Positions 42,758 to 61,011 of a stretch of 64,000 nt of DNA are shown here, piece by piece. The position numbers and the translations under genes are program-made. This DNA comes from Phytophthora quininea (lineage: Eukaryota > Oomycota > Peronosporomycetes > Peronosporales > Peronosporaceae). Positions within the stretch are counted from its first letter, which is position 1, and each line of letters opens with the position of its first letter. The notes under the pieces were generated by a model that was not told the DNA's origin, searched no databases, and worked only from the letters and a program-made list of their open reading frames with translations. The stretch spans positions 744,001 through 808,000 of the forward strand of contig JAAVTG010000043.1 in NCBI GenBank assembly GCA_011947345.1, written 5' to 3'.

Positions 42758-44521
42758 CTATTCCTCTCGACCGACGGCGTTGGCGATGACGGGGTCCTTG
42801 GCGCAGGTCTTGTCGGCGGCGACGCCCACGAAGATGGGGAACCGAGGGATGCCGTCGTTCGTCAGCTCCTGACACTTGTACACGATGATGCTGCCGATGG
42901 CCGGGGGTTGTCGCGCTGCTTGTCCGACAGGCCGCTGGCCACTTTGAACATCTTGCCGCTGGTCATGCGGCAGCGCAGCGCGCCCACCATGCCTGTGTAT
43001 TTGCCTTTGCCGTCCTCGTACGCGAGCACCTCCGCCTCGCCGTCGTGGAAACTCTTAATCTTGAGCAGCGACGACGACCGCCCTTGCGCGTACTTGCTGC
43101 CTGGCTGACGAATCATGAGGCCTTCGCCGCCGAGCTTCTCGATCTCGTCGAACACTTTGTCCAAGTGCTCGAGGGACTTGCACCGGGAGTGCTCCACCCA
43201 CTCGATGTATTGAGACGAAGCCTTGGTCACTACCTCCTGAGCATGCTCCATGCGATCCTCGAACGGTTTGCCCTTGAGACTCGGAGCGTCAAACACCTTG
43301 TAGACGATCTTCCCCACTCTTTAGCGCCCTGTGTCTTAGCAATACCCACAGTGAACTGGAACGCACCCCGACCGCCGAAGAGCTCTCCATCGAGGTCAAC
43401 ATCGTCAGGGAAGCTGTCGGTGAACCAACTGGGCGCCGGGTACTCGTTCCCCAAGCGCGAGAGGAAGATCTTTTGGAGGAATCCCAGTAGGCGCGCACGC
43501 CGTCCAACTTCTCGCTGATCCACCAGCCCACGGGGTTGTCGCTCTCGCGATCCCATTTCTTCGCCAACAGTACTTTTGGTGCCGCGGCCTTCACCACAGT
43601 CTTGCTCTTGCCACGAGGCATGGTAGCTGACCCACGAGCACGCGCAGTCTCAAACTCCAGGCCCAGGAGCTCCTTCAAGTGCTTGCAGGTTCGAACATTC
43701 GGCGGGTGGCGCTGGTTTCTCCACGCGGGGCAGCTGCAAGAATATACCTGACCCAACCGCTTGACGATGTAGGCCGAACCTGACGACGCGCTCTTGACGT
43801 CGTGGAAGATGCCGTCCACCAGCAGAAGCTTGGGCTTGATCCCATTGATGGCCCCCGTCTCCTCGTCGTAGTCGACTTCTCCACCCTCTTCATCTGCTGT
43901 GGCTGCATCTGCAACCACCTGCTTTTTGGCCGGCGGGCCGTTCGATTCCGTCTCCTCCTCCTGCTCCGTCGTCTCCATTTGAGAGATTTTATCCTCCCAC
44001 TGATGCTCCGTGAACACAGTCACGCCCAACTTCTTGGCCTCCTGGAGCTTCTGGCCTGCCTTCTCTCCGCACACCAGGAACGTCGTGGCTTTGGTCATCC
44101 TCGGTTGCACTCGGAAGCCTTTACTCTCCGCCTCCCGACTCGCCTCTTTCCGGGGTCTGCTCAAAGTGCCAGTGAAGACCACCGTCCGCACCTGCTCGGC
44201 TGCTGCTGGTGTTGCTGCTACGTCTCTCTCCTTACGCTTCTTCTTTGGAGACTGCTCCAGTGTTTCTTCATCCTTCTTCTCTTGTTCTGGCGCCTTCTGC
44301 TGCATCTCCGACAGTTTCCACCTCCACTCGTCCTCGCTCAGCGTCTGTACACCCAACTTGTGCGCTTCCTCCGTCTTCTTGGCGCCCACTTTGGCCCCGC
44401 ACACGAGGAAGTTCGACGTCTTGCTCAGTCGACTCCCCACCTCCAAGCCGTGACGCACCGCCTCTGCAGCAGCTTCTTTCCGAGGCTGCGACAGCGTCCC
44501 TGTGAACACCACGACAGGCAT
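42758..44521 (-). CDS. BRCT-BRCT-SWIM-ATP-dependent DNA ligase
   Basis: From the ATG at 44521: BRCT 1 (VVFTGTLSQPRKEAA, about residues 1-75), a charged linker, BRCT 2 (VVFTGTLSRPRKEAS, about 115-190), a SWIM zinc finger (CSCPAW...CKHL), then a ligase core whose nucleotidyl-transfer lysine lies in SEKLDGVRAYW, with LDGELFGGRG, GGEGLMIR and LLKIKSF motifs and an OB-fold end at 42758. Three lost bases (near 43484, 43313 and 42904, in C or G runs) break the frame; about 588 residues after allowing for them. Small ligase cores of this type seal nicks; BRCT and SWIM suggest recruitment to repair sites. Confidence 0.85.
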
Positions 44522-44644
44522 CGCTTTCTCGAACCGCTGGACGGCAAAAGTCAAAGTGATCTACTTCAACCAATGTCGCTTCAGGTCAAGTATTGAATTA
44601 ACCAGGTGTGAGTGATGGTTACAGCAAATCGATATCCTGCCAGC

Positions 44645-47025
44645 ATGTCAAGCTCGTCGGCCGACGCCGCGGACGATGGCAGCGCCACGTCCAAGTGGAT
44701 GAAGATGATCTCGTCCACGTTTCTCGGAGAGACCACGGGCGCCTCCCTCTTCGCTCGACGCGCGTCAGGCAGCGCCGCTGCGGCCGGCGGCGTCTCTCCG
44801 GCGGCGCTGAGCGATTGGGCCAAGCTCAGGGCCGAGAGCAAACTGGACCCGACGCCGCAGCTCAAGATCGCACTTGTGGGCGGCTCCGCCGTGGGTAAGA
44901 CGAGTATTGTGCGGCGCTGGCTGCAGCGCTCGTACCCGGCCACGTACACCCCACAATCGGTGTGGACGTGAACTGCCTGGGCTACCGGCATCGCGGCCAG
45001 GAGCTGCTGCTGCAGCTGTGGGACGTCTCCAGCGCTGAGGCGGACGCCAGCGCTGCATCGCTGCACGCTCTGCTGTGCGAGGCCTGGACGGCATCTTTTC
45101 GTATTCAACGTGCACCGAGTGAGCTCCATCGCAGCCGTCGACAAGTGGCGCCATTGTCTGGCCAAGTATTTGTCCCCCAAGGAGACGCCGTGCTTCTTGC
45201 TGTCACACAAGGCGGACTTGCTACAGAAGAGGGTCATGACCAGCGACGACATTGCAGCCTACGCCCAGGCGGCCGGGTACAGGGGATGGATGTGGACGGT
45301 GGGGAAGCCAAACTTTGGAGAGAACGAAAGGAACCCGGCGGTGAAAGAGGCGCTGGAGCGCATGGTAGAATTCATTTGCAAGGACCGGATTGCCACGGAA
45401 TATACTCGAGTAGCACGTTTGACCAGGCCGTTGGGCATCTTGGAGACGGCTGGGAACCCTGCTCCGTTGGAGATCATCCAGACGGAAGATGCTTTGCACC
45501 ATTTCTCGACCTCGTTGCTGCGAATCCCGACAAAAGCCATTACAACACTACCGCGAGATGAAAACATGATGCCCATCAACGAAAACTTTAATGCGACTGA
45601 AAGTGAGGAGAAACGAGAGGATGCAGCTCATGTTGCTGCAGCTCTGCGTAGCGATAAACGAGCTGCAAACTATGGCGGCAACTGGATTCTAGGCAATAAC
45701 AAGGGCGTGTATCTGCGGGCGACAAACAGCAGCCTCCTCGGTAACGACGAGACTGACGATGACTCGGAGTCGGTGGAAGAGTTCACGTTTCCATTTTCTA
45801 GCTCGCGGCAAATTAACGAGGATGATGATGCCGCTGCAACTGCTGAAGCGCGGAGACGCGAAAAGGAAGAAGAGGATCGTGAACGGCGCAAAGAGGAGGA
45901 AAGGGCTGAGCGAGACCGTCGCAACGACAAAGAAGCATGGCATTTCTTTGCTGGCAGTATTAGTCGTGCTCAGGCGGAAAAACTTCTCGAGTACGTTCCA
46001 ATCTGCTATGAAGCGAAGGTAAACTGTTCTGACTGTTTTCCTGCGGTGTTGCGTGCAGAAATCGAGGAGAAGGCACTTTTCTTCTTCGCCGAAAAGATGC
46101 GCAGACGCTAATCCTCTCTTATATGGGGCCAGACTACGTGCATCATGTGCTCATTGAGTTTTCGAACCAAAGGTATCATGTTGGCTCGTCCAAGGTAAGG
46201 TCACTCATTTAACATTTGTCGGTCGGCTGGACTAAAACACTTGGGTTCTGCTGCACTAGGCATCATTATCGACATCTTTTGCTTCGCTTTGGAAGTGCCT
46301 GAGAAGTGTGGGGCGCTATGCGTACCGCGGGTTGATTTTCAGTCGCAACGTTGAGTTTAGTGTTGTCAACAAGCAAGAGCTGATCGTCGAAGACGAGAGT
46401 ATAGCTTCTGGCAGTCCAACCGACGCCACGACACCTACCAATGCCCCAACGATACCTGGGAGTATCTGGCGAACACGGACTCGAAGCGGCTCCAGCGGTT
46501 CGCTGGGGGATCGTAGCTGCAACAGCAATAGTCGCCATGCATCTCCCACGACAGCAACGCGGAAGCCCCGTCACTCTCCGGGGCTGCAAGCCAACCAGGA
46601 GCAGGTTCAAATTCCGACGCAGACTCGAGTGGACGAGCTGACCACGGAATTCTACGACCACCTGGCGCAGCGGTTGTCGTATCTGGATCAGCAGCAAAGG
46701 CCGAGACGCCCGAAGCGCACGGCACGATCGGACTGTCCGAGGACGTTGCCCCTCTCCTCGAAATGGTAAGCTATCGCTACTTCAGACGAGTCCCACGTAG
46801 TGTCTGATCGTTTCGTCATGTAGGTCAACCAGGAGAAGAGCGAACTGCGCCAAGTCCACGACAATAACGCCGAGACCCAGTGGCGGCAGCTCGTGAAGAA
46901 CATGGAGGCCTGGAACCGCATTGTCATGAATTTGGTACGCGTAGACGCCAGTCGCGAAAGAAATTCGTCTCACTGACCTGGTCATATTTTCTCTTTGCCA
47001 GGAACTCTGCTCGATCGCCCCGTAA
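44645..47025 (+). CDS. Rab-like GTPase fused to an SH2 domain, with coiled-coil tail
   Basis: From the ATG at 44645: a variable N-terminus, then a Rab32-like GTPase with P-loop GGSAVGKTS, switch I TIGVDVNC and strand LWDVSSAEAD. The usual WDTAGQ glutamine is absent, NKxD reads SHKAD, and the G5 region is GWMWTVGK, so nucleotide handling is probably atypical. An acidic/coiled region precedes an SH2 domain (AWHFFAGSISRAQAEKLL, GTFLLRRKDAQTLILSY, QRYHVGSSK) with the phosphotyrosine-binding arginine in FLLR. Exons 44645-46018, 46059-46194, 46260-46765, 46824-46934 and 47002-47025. Lost bases near 44950, 45092, 45097 and 46690; phase across the first intron does not fit simply. Confidence 0.8.
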
Positions 47026-47167: not shown

Positions 47168-49042
47168 ATGACCATGAACCAGACGGAGATGGAGGACGCG
47201 CCGCTGCTGGTGGGCGGCGGCTCCCGCTCGCGTCGCCCTCCGTCGTCCCCGCCAACCTCCAGAGCTTCACCGCAGAGCGACGTGGCCATGGACCTGGAAT
47301 CAGGCCGCCAGCGCAACTCGTCGAGCGACCGCAGCCTCCGACCGGAGCCCAAGCAGCAACCAGCGAGGGCCAAGGCCGACAGCGGCGCGTCGTCCGCCAG
47401 AAGCTCCAGAGCCGCTGAGAAGATCACGGTGGCCGCAGTGGTGGTGCACCTGCTCAAGGGCAACATCGGCCCCGGCGCCATGTCGCTGCCCAACGGCTTC
47501 TCCAAGACGGGCATCTACGCGGGGCCTGTGCTGTTCGTCCTCGTGGCGCTCGTCTCGGTGTACAACATGGACCTGCTGCTTAAGTGCAAACACATTGTGA
47601 GTCCCAAGGGGCCCATGAGCTTCGGAGACGTCGGGAGGGAAATTCTGGGCCCCAAGGGGAAGCTGCTCATCGACGTCTTCCTCGTGGGCACGCAGCTGGG
47701 CATCTGCTGCGTCTACTTCACCTTCGTGGCCACAAACATCCACGTCGTGCTGCCGCAGAGTCTGCAGGACGCCATCAATGAGCGGCAGATTATCTTTGCC
47801 ATCTTCCCGATTCTGCTCATGCTCTCGTGGGTGCGCACGCTGCGGCGTATCACGCCCTTCTCCGGTCTAGGTGAGTGGCTGTGTCCTTGCTCAAGGTGAC
47901 GAGAGGAATTTGATGAGAATTTGTGCGCAGCCAACTTCGCAGTGCTTTCGGGCATCGCCATCGTGTTTTACTACTCGATCGACTACTGGCAACACCCAAG
48001 GAAGCCACGAGAGCCGACGATATTTGCTGATTGGAGCCAACTACCTGAGTTCTACGGGACTGCAGTGTACTCGTTCGAGGGGATTGGATTGGTCCTGCCC
48101 ATCCAGAACGCCATGGCGCAGCCTGAACGCTTCCCGCGCATTCTGGCCATCTGCATGCTGTCCATTCTGGTGCTGTTCCTGTTCATTGGCGAGGTGCCAA
48201 CGATCGCCTTTGGCAGGATCGACAACGGCAGCATGACGGCTGTGCTTCACGACTACTGTGAAGGTTGGCTTGTCACGATGGTACGTGCTGCCACCTCATT
48301 GTTGTGTGCGATCTCTCTGCTTACTGTTTGGTATTTGTGCGGATAGGCGAACGTAGCGCTCGCGTTTGCGTGTACACTTTCTTTTCCCATCCAGTTCTAC
48401 CCAGCGATTGATGTGCTAGAGCGCATGCTACGGCACAAGTCAATGATGCGGCCAACACCACCAGCAGAGCCCACACAAGTCGCGTTGGAGGCGCGACGGC
48501 GACGAAAAGCTCGAAAGCAGTACCGCACCTTGCATGGACAGGATGGCGCTCTCGAGTACAGTCACCGCGACGACCACGACGTCATGCTGTCATCAAGCAG
48601 CACCAACAGTCATCCGCCGACGCTGTTTTCGCTCCAGACGGGCATGCGGCACTCGTTCTCGCCGATCGCCTCTCCTGCGATGGTCGCAGCTGCTGCTTCC
48701 GTCTCCACTTCTCGATCTTCTGCGACGTGTTTGGAGCGACTGGTGTGCAATCTGACGCCGTACGAATGCAATCGCACGCTGTTCCGATCCATGCTGTGCA
48801 CAAGCCTCATGGTCATCGCCGTCTGCGTCCCCGATGTTGGGCTGCTTATCAGTCTCTTCGGCTCCGTGGGGTCGAGTATGCTGGCGATCGTGCTGCCACC
48901 CATACTGTATCTGGTTGCTGCGGGGCCTACACTTTCGTTGCCATCGCGCGTGTTCCACTGGGGGATTGCGGTCTTTGGCGTCGTGGGGATGGTTGCCGGC
49001 ACCATACAGGCCATGCGCCAGGTCATCGACTCCTTCAACTAG
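47168..49042 (+). CDS. Amino-acid permease of the AAAP (SLC36-like) family
   Basis: Exons 47168-47870, 47931-48280 and 48347-49042 join without any break to about 582 residues. A Ser/Arg-rich cytosolic N-terminus precedes the first membrane segment with VVHLLKGNIGPGAMSLPNGF, the conserved start of AAAP transporters. About eleven hydrophobic segments follow, including YSFEGIGLVLPIQNAM in the usual place. A large hydrophilic loop with Ser/His-rich sequence (48480-48720) lies between late segments and is longer than in animal SLC36. Likely H+-coupled amino-acid transport at plasma or vacuolar membrane. Confidence 0.88.
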
Positions 49043-54275: not shown

Positions 54276-54703
54276 GTGAACGCGGCCACCGTATAGTAGT
54301 CGACAACAATTCGACTATGCATGCCGATCAATAAGTGCGCTCGAGCTCTTCCTCTACCTTTGACGTCCGTGATACCTTATCTTGCCGCCTGTGACTTGGC
54401 GAACGTGGCATGTGCCACCCGCCCTACCAGCTGGGAATCGCGCTTGCACTGGTGTAAAGGCTGTGACTGCGTAAAGGACTCGAACACCAACTGGAAGTGG
54501 TGAGCGTTCCCCTTGCTGTCAACAGTTCTATAGCTTTTGCCTCGTGGGCATTTGGACCTCTTCCTGGAGGTAATCGCCCGTGATAGCCGACATCGTCCAA
54601 CAAACCTGGAGTGACGTCGCCGCATGGAGTCGCCGGTATAGCCCTTCTCCACCAGCAGGGTCCGTCGTACGCCTCAATTTGGAACGAGCGTCGTGGGAGC
54701 TCC
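54276..54703. other. Intergenic stretch upstream of GH5 copy A
   Basis: Probable promoter region of copy A. No gene, repeat or clear motif seen. It ends at the Copia insertion site. Confidence 0.4.
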
Positions 54704-55007
54704 TGTGAGATAGGCAGACTCACCGCGGAGGTGGTCGTGCCAGTGTGCTGTAAGAATCGGAATGCATGGTACGACACGAGGTCGTATCTGGGATCCTATC
54801 AGTATGTCGCTATCTGTTTGAATACACATTGTGCCAAAGGGGTGGAGGCCTGCAGTACTCCCTGCTGGCGAGTACTCACTTCAGACTTGTCTGTCCAGTG
54901 CGTACATCGCCCTCCACCCCCAACGCTGCGGACGTTCCCCGCAAACTCGTCTCCTACTTCTACATGCCTGTGACTACGCGAAGCCAAGCTTCCTCCGCCT
55001 CTCCTCA
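54704..55007 (+). repeat. 5' LTR of Copia element 2
   Basis: 304 bp, same sequence as 60421-60724. Confidence 0.93.
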
Positions 55008-55021
55008 GGTTATGAGCACCA
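55008..55021 (+). other. Primer-binding site overlapping the gag start codon
   Basis: GGTTATGAGCACC directly follows the 5' LTR. The ATG (55012) begins gag (MSTNNPLARSRQ). Same arrangement as Copia element 1, supporting internal initiator-tRNA priming as in Drosophila copia. Confidence 0.55.
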
Positions 55022-56830
55022 ACAACCCGCTAGCTAGAAGCAGGCAGGCAAGCCAAGTTGCTTCTGCGACCGTGAGTGCTGCCCAGGATCGCTATTGGCG
55101 TCAGCATCCTCGCCACGATGCCGCGACTACAGCCGGGCAGCAACATGTGCAGGTAGCCTCTTCGGTTGACGAAACGGACGTTGGGACAGCTGCAAGCCCT
55201 CCTAATGCTACGAGACACGACGTCTCTGATACCGCAGAAACGAGAAGCGTTCAAGCGGAGCCTAGTGCCCGCGTTGCTACTGTCGCAGACGCAACTGGAA
55301 ACGCTAGTGAACAGCATGGTGCCCCAGCGAGCTTGAGAAGCGCGCTCCTGGCTGCAAGCGCTGCTTTTGGGCCGCAGCAGCTTTTGACGATGCTCTTGGA
55401 TCAAGTAGAGCACCGCAGTGCGGTGAGTGAGCAGGCTGTGCCGATGCACAGTGGCGATTCATCCAGTGGGAGTCTGGTTGTGGGCGTGCTGGGTGGTGGA
55501 GATGCGACACACTCTTCCTCTCCCACCACCTCCCACATCCGAATTCGCCGTGAAGACAGAACTGCCAATGGCGTCGACCCGCCCTCGCCGCCCTCGCCAC
55601 CATCGTCGGCGTCATCCGACGCGAGCAGCTCTCACCATGATTCCCCGACGCGCAGCACCGACAGCCCAGCAGGAGCCGTGGTCGCGTCTTCTGGTCTTGG
55701 TGGCTTTAGTCGGCGCTCGCTAATGGACGCCAAGGACCGCGCGATGCTGACACGAGAGATCAAGGTGATCGAACTTGATGGTCACAAAAGTACGATGCAT
55801 GGAAGCAAGACTTGGAGCTGAAGCTGAACGAATGGGGGCTGATGGAGTTTCTTGACGGATCTGCTGCGCTAGATGAAGCTCGTGCTGCCAGTGATCCAGA
55901 GTACCAGTTTCTATTTGGTGAGAGGAAGACGAAAAGTTTCTCCGCCTTGGCGCTGTCGCTGAGCATCAAGCTACGCGAAGAGTACAAGGCCCCGATCGAG
56001 TCGCAGGACCCCGCTGTGCTCTTCAGCGCTCTCAAGGCACACTTTGAAAGGGGAAGGAGAATCCAATCTACCTAAAGCGGGAGTTTTACTCACGCATGCT
56101 CCGGAAAAACGAGCAAGTACAGCAGTACATTGACAGCCTCCGAGCCACCCGTCGCCGCATTGCCGAGTCCGGAGCCTCGATCACCGAGAATGAGCTGGCA
56201 CGCACAATTCTGTCTAACTGCGTCGATGTATACCCTACTGTGGCAATCAAGCACACAGAGTGGGCCAAGGTGAACACTGCTGTCGAACTGGACGTACAGC
56301 AGGCTGTTATCCAGCTGGAGACGGCAGAACAAGCTCAGCGCGAGGTTCGTCGTACGAGTGAAGCTGTTCCAGCCAATGGCCAAGGTTTAACGGAACCTCG
56401 CAAGGTAACTACTGTGACCAACAAGCCAGGAAACAAGAAGCGTGGCGCCCGAGGCAAGTCCCAGCAGAAGGGAAAGAGACCACGCCTCCAGATTGGACCT
56501 GACCATCGCTGCCTTAACTGCAACAGCAGCGAACATTGGTTCAGCAACTGTCCAAAGGAGCTGACCCCAGAGCTCCAAAAGAAGAAAGAAGAGTGGCTTG
56601 CTCGCTCAGGGAAGGGAAAGCAACCGCCCAAGGTACCTCAGTCTATGACGACGGTAATTCTGCATGCCTCGTCCACTAGCCGCCAGGAATCCGCTCGCAC
56701 AGGTGTGCATTTCGCTACATGCCCGACAGCACCGCGCTCAAGATCTGAAGCATTTGCGTCGTGCTGTAGCCAAGTTCCAGTGGGAGCGAGACGCACAGCT
56801 GGAGGTATCGACTTTAAGTACAGCATCTGA
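55012..56830 (+). CDS. Copia element 2 gag, frame-broken
   Basis: A long Ser/Ala-rich N-terminal region (MSTNNPLAR...) is followed after a lost A near 55792 by the capsid (YDAWKQDLELKLNEWGL), after another near 56052 by KENPIYLKREFYSRM and the zinc knuckle CLNCNSSEHWFSNC. More breaks lie between 56680 and 56850, where a tail with LKHLRRAVAKFQWERD leads to pol. An N-terminal extension of about 250 residues before capsid is longer than usual for Copia. Confidence 0.8.
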
Positions 56831-56854
56831 AATGGGAGTCCTGGGCCGTACTTC

Positions 56855-59800
56855 GTGATGGCTCATGTGAGCGACCCAGGACAAGACCCGCTGCCTCCAG
56901 GTGAAATTGAATGGATGCTTGATGGAGGCTCGCAGTGGAACGTAGCAAGCGATCTCACGCTATTTGCGCGGCTGGACGAGAGATCAGACGGACCCCAACT
57001 ACTATTTGGCAACGGTAGTACGGAGACTGCAACGATCCGTGGCTCTGTGTTGATGCACGTGATGAATAAGCACTCCAACACGCCTGAAGACCGCTTCCTT
57101 GATGATGTCGTATACTCTCCGAATGCCCCTGCTAACATCATCTCGCAAGGCTACATGCAGCTCAGTGGAGGCTTTCATTTGACGACATCTCTTGACCATC
57201 ACACAGCTTGGTTGACCAAGTCATCACTTCGACTTGAATTTAAAATGCGAGATGGCATTTACTACATGCGCGTGCCGCGGCAGCCGAAGCTAGTGATGAG
57301 CGTGATGACCCAGCTTGCAGTGATTCGTACTAGGCCGATGCATTTACTACACAACCGAATGGGCCACATCGGCATTGAAACGCTGCGCAAACTTGTGGCG
57401 CAACACGTGAACCTGGGTGTGAACCTGAATGAACGTGCTATCCGTTCTTGTGAATGTATTCCGTGCTCCGAGTCCAAGATGAGGCAGATGACCTACAGAC
57501 GCAACCCTCGTCGTCGAACGACCCCGTTAGAGAAGCTGTCGATGGATGTGTGCTCAATTGGAGATGCAACAGTCAGTGGTGAAACGATGTTCCTTCTCGT
57601 GGTCGATGAAGCCACTCGCTTTAAGTGGGGATATCTACTCAAGTCGAAAGGAGAGGCTGCCAGGCACGTGAAGGCGTTAGTCAAGCACCTGAAGTTGAAA
57701 TTCAAGAGCTGGCCAACTTTGATTCTGCATGGTGACCAAGGTGGTGAATTTCTTGGTGGTGATCTCGCGGAATTTTGTGAGCAGGAAGGGATCGAGGCCC
57801 AATTCACAAATGGGTATTCTCCCCAGGAAAACAGCATCGTGGAAAGAGCCAATGGCGTCGTCGTAACACGCCTCCGAACGCTACTGAGAGCCACCATGCT
57901 GCCAAATCTCTTGTGGGGTGAAGCATTCCACCATTCGATTTACACGTTGAATCGAACACCCACTACTGTTCTCGACTTCAAATCTCCGTATGAGATGCTG
58001 CATGGCCATCCTGCTGATCTCTCGTTGCTCCGGACATGGGGCTGTATCGCACAGATGCGTGTGCCGCCTGAAACCCGTCCGAAGAAGGAGAAACTAGCAT
58101 CTCGCACTGAAATGTGCTTGCTTCTTGGGTATGGAGTTGACACTAAGGGGTACAAGATGATGAATTTGTGTACCGGTGGCATCCGCACTTGCCGACTCGA
58201 AAATGCTCTTTTTCACGAAGAGTTTACGTGTGAATCATCGTACGTCAAGAAGTTGCTGAAGAACGCATTTCTGTATGGAGACTACGAGCTGCCAACACCT
58301 TTACCAGTTGTGCATATGAAATCCGGCATGGAATCGTATGCAGTGGACGTTGAGCAAACACAGCCTCCTGTGGGTATGTCTGCGGAACCGGCCAAGGTAA
58401 CGCCAAAGCGCAGTGATGCCGCACTGCCTTCGGCGAGTGGGAGAATTGTGGATAACGCTGTGCCTGGTACCGCTGAAGACATCGCTACTGCTGTGCCGAA
58501 GAAGCGTAAGCGAAAACCTGGTCTGATGCCTTATCGTGATGATACTGCTGATTCCGTTGTGCTTGACGATGATGCTGTGCCGCAACCGACATCACCAACT
58601 ACTCTTCCCGCCAGGCGCCGACGACGTGCAAATGTTCGGCTACACGACTACGTAGTAAACAACGTGCTGACGCATGACGTGGAGATCGATATTCCTGCTA
58701 ACGATAAGGAAGCGCGTGCATCTCCACAGTGGCCGCAATGGCGGGCTGCCATGCATGAAGAACTTCACTCGCTGCTAGCTCGCCATACTTGGGACCTCGT
58801 GCGGCGCGCCGAGGTTAATGGAGCCAAGGTGATCACCTGTCGCTGGGTGTACGCCTTGAAGCGTGATGAGCATGGAAACATCAAGCGCTACAAGGCAAGG
58901 TTGGTTATACATGGCTTCAAGCAAGAATTTGGAGTGAACTTTCACGAAACTTACGCTCCTGTGGTGCGTTTTGAATCCATTCGGGCGGCCATCTACTTTG
59001 CAATGACGCACGGATGGGACATACTTCAGTATGATGTGAAGACTGCCTTTCTGTATGGTGAGCTAGCTGAGCTTGTCTTCATGGAGCAACCGCCAGGGAT
59101 CGATGGCACCAATCCAGAGATGGTTTGCCGTCTTCTCAAGAGTTTGTATGGATTGCGTCAAGCCCCTCGCATCTGGAATGAAACGCTGGACGCACTACTC
59201 AAGCAGATTAATTTCGTGCGCCTCGACTCTGATTACGGTCTCTATGCGCTCAAGGCTGAAGATGGCAGCATACTAATGCTTCTCACTGTTTACGTGGATG
59301 ATTTGCTGCTGATGGGTCCAACAGCGCGGTGTGCACGCGTGGCAGCTCAGCTGAAGAAACAGTTTGAGTTAAGTGAGCTTGGACCTGTTCGATATTTGCT
59401 TGGCGTCGAGATTTTGGTGGATCGTCCTCGAATGCGTGTTATTTTCATTCAGCGTCAGTATGTACTTGATGTACTTCGGCGATTCAGCATGGAAAATGCT
59501 GTGGATTCGCCTATTCCACAGGCAACAGCGCCCGTGACCGCAGAGCCGCCGCAGTTGGAGAAGTACCCATTTCGTGAAGTTGTTGGAGCCTTACAATACT
59601 TGGTGTCTGCATCCCGTCCCGATATTGCACACGCAACACGCCATCTCGGCAAGTTCCTGACTTGCTATACCAGCGCCAATTATGCAGAAGCTATGCGAGT
59701 CTTGCGCTATCTACACGGCACTGCGGACTTCGGCCTTGTAATGGATGTAAAACACTCCAGCTCAGCATCGATTGTTGGGTACTCGGACGCCGACTACGCC

Positions 59801-60289
59801 AACGACCCGGATGATTCCAAGAGCGTGAGCGGCTACGTCAGTCTGCTGGATGGCAATGTCGTGTCGTACGCATCAAGAAAACAGACCATCAATGCGCAAA
59901 GCACGTGCGAAGCTGAATACATCGCGATGAACGAATGCACCCGAGATTTGCTGTGGTTTGAAGGTCTTCTTGACGAGATGGGTTGGAAGCACGATGTCCC
60001 TGTTCTTCGTGGCGACAACCTGGGTAGCATTCGCTTGGCGTCCAAGCCCGGCAAGCACAGAAACACCAAGCACATCTTAAACAAGTACCATCTGATCAGG
60101 CACCTTGTGGAGGAGAAGCACCTGCGGACGGAGCACGTTCGTACCGAGGACCAAATCGCCGACGTGATGACGAAGCCACTTGGAACTGTGAAGTTCCGCC
60201 GTTTTCGTACGGCTCTCAAAGTGTTGCAGGTGATCGCTGGTCGAGACATTATTACCGGTGGTGCTGTGGACGAAAGTGATATATCATGA
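56855..60289 (+). CDS. Copia element 2 pol (protease, integrase, RT, RNase H)
   Basis: An open frame of 1144 codons. The protease reads MLDGGSQWNV where D-S-G is usual; the integrase finger is HNRMGHIG with CECIPC; the core has MDVCSIGD, LHGDQGGEF and NSIVERANG; RT has TYAPVVRFESIR and VYVDDLLLM; RNase H has GYSDADYAND and CEAEYIAM. The order defines Copia. Pol belongs in one polyprotein with gag once the breaks between 56680 and 56850 are accounted for. Confidence 0.93.
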   Translation: MMAHVSDPGQDPLPPGEIEWMLDGGSQWNVASDLTLFARLDERSDGPQLLFGNGSTETATIRGSVLMHVMNKHSNTPEDRFLDDVVYSPNAPANIISQGYMQLSGGFHLTTSLDHHTAWLTKSSLRLEFKMRDGIYYMRVPRQPKLVMSVMTQLAVIRTRPMHLLHNRMGHIGIETLRKLVAQHVNLGVNLNERAIRSCECIPCSESKMRQMTYRRNPRRRTTPLEKLSMDVCSIGDATVSGETMFLLVVDEATRFKWGYLLKSKGEAARHVKALVKHLKLKFKSWPTLILHGDQGGEFLGGDLAEFCEQEGIEAQFTNGYSPQENSIVERANGVVVTRLRTLLRATMLPNLLWGEAFHHSIYTLNRTPTTVLDFKSPYEMLHGHPADLSLLRTWGCIAQMRVPPETRPKKEKLASRTEMCLLLGYGVDTKGYKMMNLCTGGIRTCRLENALFHEEFTCESSYVKKLLKNAFLYGDYELPTPLPVVHMKSGMESYAVDVEQTQPPVGMSAEPAKVTPKRSDAALPSASGRIVDNAVPGTAEDIATAVPKKRKRKPGLMPYRDDTADSVVLDDDAVPQPTSPTTLPARRRRRANVRLHDYVVNNVLTHDVEIDIPANDKEARASPQWPQWRAAMHEELHSLLARHTWDLVRRAEVNGAKVITCRWVYALKRDEHGNIKRYKARLVIHGFKQEFGVNFHETYAPVVRFESIRAAIYFAMTHGWDILQYDVKTAFLYGELAELVFMEQPPGIDGTNPEMVCRLLKSLYGLRQAPRIWNETLDALLKQINFVRLDSDYGLYALKAEDGSILMLLTVYVDDLLLMGPTARCARVAAQLKKQFELSELGPVRYLLGVEILVDRPRMRVIFIQRQYVLDVLRRFSMENAVDSPIPQATAPVTAEPPQLEKYPFREVVGALQYLVSASRPDIAHATRHLGKFLTCYTSANYAEAMRVLRYLHGTADFGLVMDVKHSSSASIVGYSDADYANDPDDSKSVSGYVSLLDGNVVSYASRKQTINAQSTCEAEYIAMNECTRDLLWFEGLLDEMGWKHDVPVLRGDNLGSIRLASKPGKHRNTKHILNKYHLIRHLVEEKHLRTEHVRTEDQIADVMTKPLGTVKFRRFRTALKVLQVIAGRDIITGGAVDESDIS

Positions 60290-60420
60290 TCTTCAACCTG
60301 TAACCGTTGCAACCGGAGCTCGCGGCCTTTGGGGCTGCTCGATGCAGACGTGCAACTAGCCCAAGGCTTGCTATGATTATTGCGATCGTGGTAGCTGAGG
60401 GCACCACGCTCGAGTGGGAG

Positions 60421-60724
60421 TGTGAGATAGGCAGACTCACCGCGGAGGTGGTCGTGCCAGTGTGCTGTAAGAATCGGAATGCATGGTACGACACGAGGTC
60501 GTATCTGGGATCCTATCAGTATGTCGCTATCTGTTTGAATACACATTGTGCCAAAGGGGTGGAGGCCTGCAGTACTCCCTGCTGGCGAGTACTCACTTCA
60601 GACTTGTCTGTCCAGTGCGTACATCGCCCTCCACCCCCAACGCTGCGGACGTTCCCCGCAAACTCGTCTCCTACTTCTACATGCCTGTGACTACGCGAAG
60701 CCAAGCTTCCTCCGCCTCTCCTCA
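60421..60724 (+). repeat. 3' LTR of Copia element 2
   Basis: 304 bp; preceded by the polypurine stretch AGTGGGAG (60413-60420), the same octamer as in Copia element 1. Confidence 0.93.
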
Positions 60725-61011
60725 CTCCCTCTCTGGGTGATCCGCTGGTCGCTTCTCCCCACGTCGCGTTCTTCAGATGGTTCTCTGGTGCTGTGTACTT
60801 GTCGGGCGCACAATGAAGACTTCAAATGCATGGGAAAACCTTTACCGTCTTCATTTCGCACCAAGGTGTGTTATACAATACGAAGCCCTTTGCTAATACT
60901 ACAGTCTCCCTACAGGTACTCGCCCTGCGAAGCCGTCGTCTACTCTGCAGCGATAAGACTTCCACGAACTGACCTGACCAACTCGAAGAGTCGAAGCTTC
61001 AGTTTCTCCAG
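60725..61011. other. Intergenic stretch between Copia 2 and GH5 copy B
   Basis: Holds the 3' flank of GH5 copy B and the target duplication CTCC at 60725. No gene seen. Confidence 0.4.

Follow-up and report, generated by a model that had tools for sequence, protein, structure and literature searches.

A conserved oomycete gene joining a Rab32-like GTPase domain to an SH2 domain

In a 64,000-nucleotide stretch of the Phytophthora quininea genome (assembly GCA_011947345.1, contig JAAVTG010000043.1, positions 744,001 to 808,000; hereafter, the window), a gene on the forward strand codes for a single chain in which a linker connects a Rab32-like G domain to an SH2 domain, with helices at the C-terminus. 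The architecture is conserved among oomycetes, both domains are recognizable at the level of fold, the catalytic Gln of the G domain is lost, and the phosphotyrosine pocket of the SH2 domain is retained. From these features, we infer the nucleotide state, the phosphotyrosine binding, and the link to membrane traffic discussed below, and we lean, with some reserve, toward a conserved oomycete adaptor in which a Rab32-derived G domain held in a fixed state is combined with a phosphotyrosine-binding SH2 domain and C-terminal helices. As far as our literature searches show, the union of a Rab-like and an SH2 domain in one chain is undescribed, each domain being of a known kind.

Gene architecture, reading frame, and distribution

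The features of the gene, in window coordinates, are as follows.

44645-47025, + strand: Rab-like/SH2 fusion gene (splice sites predicted by homology and GT..AG borders; orthologs; open copy on contig C58)
44645-45990, 46059-46194, 46260-46765, 46824-46934, 47002-47025, + strand: five proposed exons
44861-45383, + strand: Rab32-like G domain (G1 GGSAVGKTS, switch I TIGVDV, G3 WDVSSAE, G4 HKAD, G5 WTVGK)
45384-45937, + strand: linker, with two conserved short motifs plus a charged stretch
45938-45990, 46059-46194, 46260-46346, + strand: SH2 domain in three exon pieces (alphaA2 Arg, betaB5 Arg within FLLR, betaD4 His)
45991-46058, + strand: intron 1, within the SH2 domain (GTACGT..GCAG; orthologs continuous at that point)
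46195-46259, + strand: intron 2, within the SH2 domain (GTAAGG..CTAG; orthologs continuous at that point)
46588-47025, + strand: C-terminal helical region (LQANQEQV...DELTTEFYDHLAQRL... WRQLVKNMEAWNRIVMNLE; frame change near 46690)

The gene opens with an ATG at 44645 and closes with a TAA at 47023-47025. An initial annotation, made from the letters of the window, had proposed a Rab32-like G domain and an SH2 domain in a single gene; all the motifs that it cited (GGSAVGKTS, TIGVDVNC, WDVSSAE, HKAD, FLLR, HHVLIEF, and QRYHVG) are present, and the single gene is borne out by a common exon and by one gene model in many species. In the open reading frame (ORF) list of the window copy, one frame is open over 44972-46111; it begins before G4 (HKAD), covers the linker, and reaches the first helix of the SH2 domain. 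Because one open exon holds G4, the linker, and the start of the SH2 domain, the fusion cannot be an artefact of gene modeling. Two homologs, P0021 (685 amino acids, 2203-base contig) and P0023 (540 amino acids, 2144-base contig), run uninterrupted through the sites of the window's SH2 introns, which suggests transcripts spanning both domains.

In the window copy, the G domain is split over three reading-frame segments, and the frame changes again near 46690. The assembly (87 Mb, 993 contigs) contains a second copy on contig C58 that is 98.2% identical over 7.8 kb and is open in a single frame from MSSSS to AEKLLE, that is, from the start codon through the first half of the SH2 domain; most likely, it is the other haplotype. 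Over the 20 kb of C58 compared, the sequence downstream is collinear at 97-98% identity. One stretch of about 6 kb (54703-60731) is unmatched there and, with flanks matching C58 at 97-98%, is possibly a haplotype-specific insertion. The frame changes in the window G domain are either assembly errors or allelic damage, and the former are favored because a neighboring gene also appears to change frame: at 42862-44560 (- strand), there are two BRCT stretches with an apparent reading-frame change suggesting assembly indel errors, followed by a stretch that we take, from its motif, to be a DNA ligase domain. The frame change at about 46690, before the conserved helices, is common to the window and C58 copies, which lowers the certainty of the C-terminal part of the window protein. 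Between the ungapped codons of the two copies, we counted 16 synonymous and 13 non-synonymous changes, with a non-synonymous to synonymous ratio per site (pN/pS) of 0.25.

Two whole-protein searches and one search with the SH2 region yielded 57 distinct homologs. These searches required common words and similar length, and scoring in the whole-protein searches was limited to the 7994 candidates with the most words in common. All 38 homologs with an organism name come from oomycetes (Phytophthora, Nothophytophthora, Peronospora, Hyaloperonospora, Plasmopara, Bremia, Peronosclerospora, Pythium, Albugo, Aphanomyces, Saprolegnia, Achlya, and Thraustotheca); no relative outside oomycetes was named among the 57, of which 19 lack an organism name. 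Where the SH2 domain came from is hardly addressed by the SH2-region search, which scored only 82 candidates and missed even the Saprolegniales orthologs. Ras, Roc, and SH2 profiles were matched by 15 of 15 aligned orthologs (Pfam, E<=0.01), and the same order of domains, which the initial annotation had suggested looking for in other oomycetes, recurs across oomycete orders. Horizontal spread by plasmid or phage was considered and set aside: the plasmid collection contained nothing matching the SH2 piece, and the phage collection nothing matching the homolog P0002.

The G domain and the SH2 domain

The ortholog P0006 matches the Ras profile with 76.3 bits, against a Pfam cut-off of 21.6. Searched apart, two pieces of the window G domain reach 18.4 and 17.9 bits, below this cut-off, because the reading frame changes inside the domain; the short middle piece with G3 gave no Ras match in the Pfam profile search. 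In sequence, the domain is closest to the Rab32/38/29 group: in a PDB profile search, Rab32, Rab38, and Rab29 came out on top (80.4, 72.5, and 69.7 bits), and single-sequence comparison pointed to the same group. The closest Rab differs by method, being Rab32 by profile and Rab29 by single sequence, with the fold tied among Rabs.

In place of the canonical G3 DxxGQ, G4 NKxD, and G5 SAK, the domain has WDVSSAE, HKAD, and TVG[K/R]. Ortholog alignments extend what had been read from a single sequence as a non-canonical G3 and G4: these motifs, and G5 as well, are fixed across oomycetes. Among the 45 homologs that have a letter at the alignment column of the catalytic Gln, none retains this residue, and the G3 Gly position is occupied by Ser (41 homologs), Phe (3), or Cys (1), the 45 including one misaligned fragment, P0053. 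A search for the DxxGQ motif matched 8 of the 57 proteins, yet the G3 alignment column contains no Gln. Conversely, the P-loop Lys and Ser/Thr, the switch-I Thr, and the G3 Asp are retained in nearly all homologs with a letter there. The lack of prenylation cysteines noted initially extends to the homologs: a CC, CXC, or CaaX terminus is absent from all 32 longer models, and 4 of them have some Cys within the last 6 residues; several of these C-termini may be mis-annotated, and that of P0055 belongs to the transporter. The initial idea that the SH2 domain or the helices stand in for a lipid anchor is a conjecture.

A profile score below threshold had been named in the initial annotation as grounds for giving up the SH2 domain; the intron-spliced piece of 103 amino acids scored 36.3 bits (E 6e-9) against the Pfam PF00017 cut-off of 21. 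The pocket is nearly invariant, with the betaB5 Arg in 40/43, the alphaA2 Arg in 49/51, and the betaD4 His in 41/43 homologs; these positions were assigned by alignment, and the residues presumably have their usual roles in the SH2 pocket. Since the Foldseek matches listed for the full-length model were G-domain matches, the SH2 fold was tested on the model of a relative without a G domain, for which p120RasGAP was the top match. VAV is among the closest sequences. The retained pocket residues point to phosphotyrosine binding by this domain.

The two structure models have a mean predicted local distance difference test score (pLDDT) of 59.2 and 58.6 and a predicted template modeling score (pTM) of 0.36 and 0.31, respectively. 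Of the C-terminal coiled coil proposed initially, the helices are backed by orthologs and models, and they could form either a coiled coil or a helical bundle.

Possible modes of action

The G domain keeps the residues that bind nucleotide and Mg and lacks the catalytic Gln and the G3 Gly. For this reason, it fits the class of nucleotide-binding, non-hydrolyzing pseudoGTPases, which is defined with Rnd as an example in the available part of PMC5593906, and it would most likely be held in one nucleotide state, as in Rnd-type proteins. Because the phosphotyrosine pocket is intact, recruitment by a tyrosine-phosphorylated partner is the simplest account of the SH2 domain: phosphorylation of the partner would recruit or release the protein, and the Rab32-like surface, always presented, could then gather Rab32-type effectors or traffic machinery at that place. 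Control would thus pass to phosphotyrosine in place of GTP hydrolysis. A more specific version, a permanently GTP-loaded Rab32-type module that is set on and off membranes by its own SH2 domain and that arose in the oomycete ancestor and has been kept since, is a possibility that we hold only tentatively; it would amount to a direct wire from tyrosine kinases to vesicle traffic outside the animal lineage.

Phosphotyrosine signaling is usually told as a story of the animal lineage. In the oomycete protein, a predicted reader of phosphotyrosine is part of a GTPase of the trafficking type, and this arrangement has persisted across oomycete orders. The protein may exemplify a small GTPase in which a phospho-switch has replaced the hydrolytic one, and it offers a conserved entry point to the question of whether functional phosphotyrosine circuits operate in oomycetes. 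The genome encodes candidate parts of such circuits: among nine matches to the protein tyrosine phosphatase family, one is a nearly full-length classical phosphatase (205 bits), and 1 of the 20 tyrosine/TKL-type kinase loci read (of 145 matches) has the tyrosine-kinase loop HRDIAARN. In the 2010 kinome of Phytophthora infestans, two tyrosine kinases and four plausible SH2 proteins were counted (PMC3019232, available part), so the initial statement that SH2 domains are rare outside animals and their relatives needs tempering. The P. infestans ortholog P0008, which carries the database name "SH2 domain," may be one of these four; the available part of that source gives their number and no architecture. 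A 2012 survey linked a conserved Phytophthora Rab of the Rab32/29/7L1 group with zoospore granules, and the term SH2 is absent from its available part (PMC3425129); a tie between the Rab-like/SH2 protein and these granules is speculation. Among titles and the beginnings of abstracts, we found no description of a Rab-SH2 protein; the Liu 2011 survey of SH2 domains in 21 species may hold one, and automatic annotation already names both domains (for example, in a Plasmopara entry).

Several observations weigh against the adaptor. None of the tests links the protein to membranes or to traffic. With HKxD and TVG[K/R], the domain may be unable to bind nucleotide, and its active conformation may be blocked by the Ser in place of the G3 Gly. 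The betaB7 position is Lys, which leaves the ligand preference undecided, and the structure models resolve the domains, not their mutual arrangement. Moreover, parts of the window copy are out of frame, and exon 3 alone shows 4 synonymous and 7 non-synonymous changes between the two copies.

The foremost alternative is a scaffold in which the G domain binds no nucleotide at all (a class i pseudoGTPase) and docks proteins beside a working SH2 domain. All three of G3, G4, and G5 are off consensus, and there is a precedent in the pseudoGTPase domain pG1 of p190RhoGAP, which binds no nucleotide (PMC5593906, available part). However, a nucleotide-free fold would be expected to lose the P-loop, switch-I, and G3 Asp residues that are kept here, and we consider such a scaffold rather unlikely.

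A second alternative is an intramolecular latch, in which the SH2 domain binds a phosphorylated Tyr of its own linker and folds back on the G domain; the tail of Src is engaged by its SH2 domain in this manner. Most of the linker is modeled with low confidence, as disordered stretches are, yet it holds two near-invariant motifs in the homolog alignment, AITTLPRD and GGxWxxGxxKGxYL, and the Tyr of the latter is kept in 49 of the 52 homologs with a letter there. In Pythium oligandrum (P0022), however, this position is Phe, and the motif may dock something else. The remaining two departures, Phe in P0055 and Ser in P0038, look like the result of misalignment or a frame shift. We consider a latch improbable.

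A true GTP switch with unusual hydrolysis (class iii) and an SH2 domain that merely localizes it finds a parallel in the RGK family, which keeps catalysis despite divergent G motifs (PMC5593906, available part), but the absence of the Gln and the replacement of the G3 Gly in all 45 homologs make it quite improbable.

Finally, several frame changes in the window copy (the C-terminal one in both copies) and gene models clearly over-fused with a neighboring transporter might suggest an artefact, an explanation to which we give hardly any weight: two separate genes are rejected on the basis of the exon that runs from G4 to the SH2 domain, the open C58 copy, and the ortholog domain matches; a false SH2 match on the basis of the score above the cut-off and the SH2 domain in 15 of 15 orthologs; and a pseudogene is unlikely given the C58 copy, open over the G domain and into the SH2 domain, the pN/pS of 0.25, and the recurrence of the architecture across oomycete orders, the C-terminal frame change in both copies remaining.

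Genomic surroundings and comparison with known systems

The next gene downstream is the following.

47168-49042, + strand: amino-acid transporter gene (Aa_trans; the C-terminus of P0055 agrees with the ORF ending at 49042)

The transporter domain (PF01490) is also found in 6 of the 57 homologs, and the domain order was checked in two fused models, P0047 and P0050, one from Phytophthora and one from Thraustotheca. Such fused models probably arose as annotation artefacts and reflect a conserved order of genes; their occurrence in databases from Phytophthora to Thraustotheca suggests that this order is old.

Two other loci in the genome contain related domains. At C593:118500-123500 (+ strand; L009), an ORF from position 461 of the locus includes a TIR-like stretch that stays under its cut-off (21.3 against 28 bits) and an NPHP3_N/NACHT-like ATPase (PF24883, 52.5 bits), and about 0.8 kb after it, on the common strand, lies an SH2 exon from position 2915 (30.9 bits, over the cut-off); judging by these profile matches, the locus possibly encodes a TIR-NACHT-like-SH2 protein. 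At C732:158900-174500 (L034 and L035), two GTPase genes form an inverted pair; they are the same in sequence for most of their length, carry WDLSG instead of WDTAGQ, and resemble the RJL family.

Compared with known systems, the protein shares the GTPase fold and altered G motifs with pseudoGTPases of the Rnd, RGK, and EhRabX types (PMC5593906 and PMC8514894, available parts). It differs from these in its Rab32-like sequence and in having an SH2 domain in the same chain. With Rab32, Rab38, and Rab29, its best sequence matches in the PDB, it shares the Rab fold and the TIGVD switch I; unlike them, it lacks the catalytic Gln and the G3 Gly, has HKxD instead of NKxD, has no CC, CXC, or CaaX end in the longer models, and carries an additional linker, SH2 domain, and helices. 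The SH2 fold and pocket residues are those of the animal proteins p120RasGAP, VAV, and RIN, in which the SH2 domain is joined to a GTPase-activating or guanine nucleotide exchange domain acting on GTPases, whereas its partner in the oomycete protein is the GTPase domain itself.
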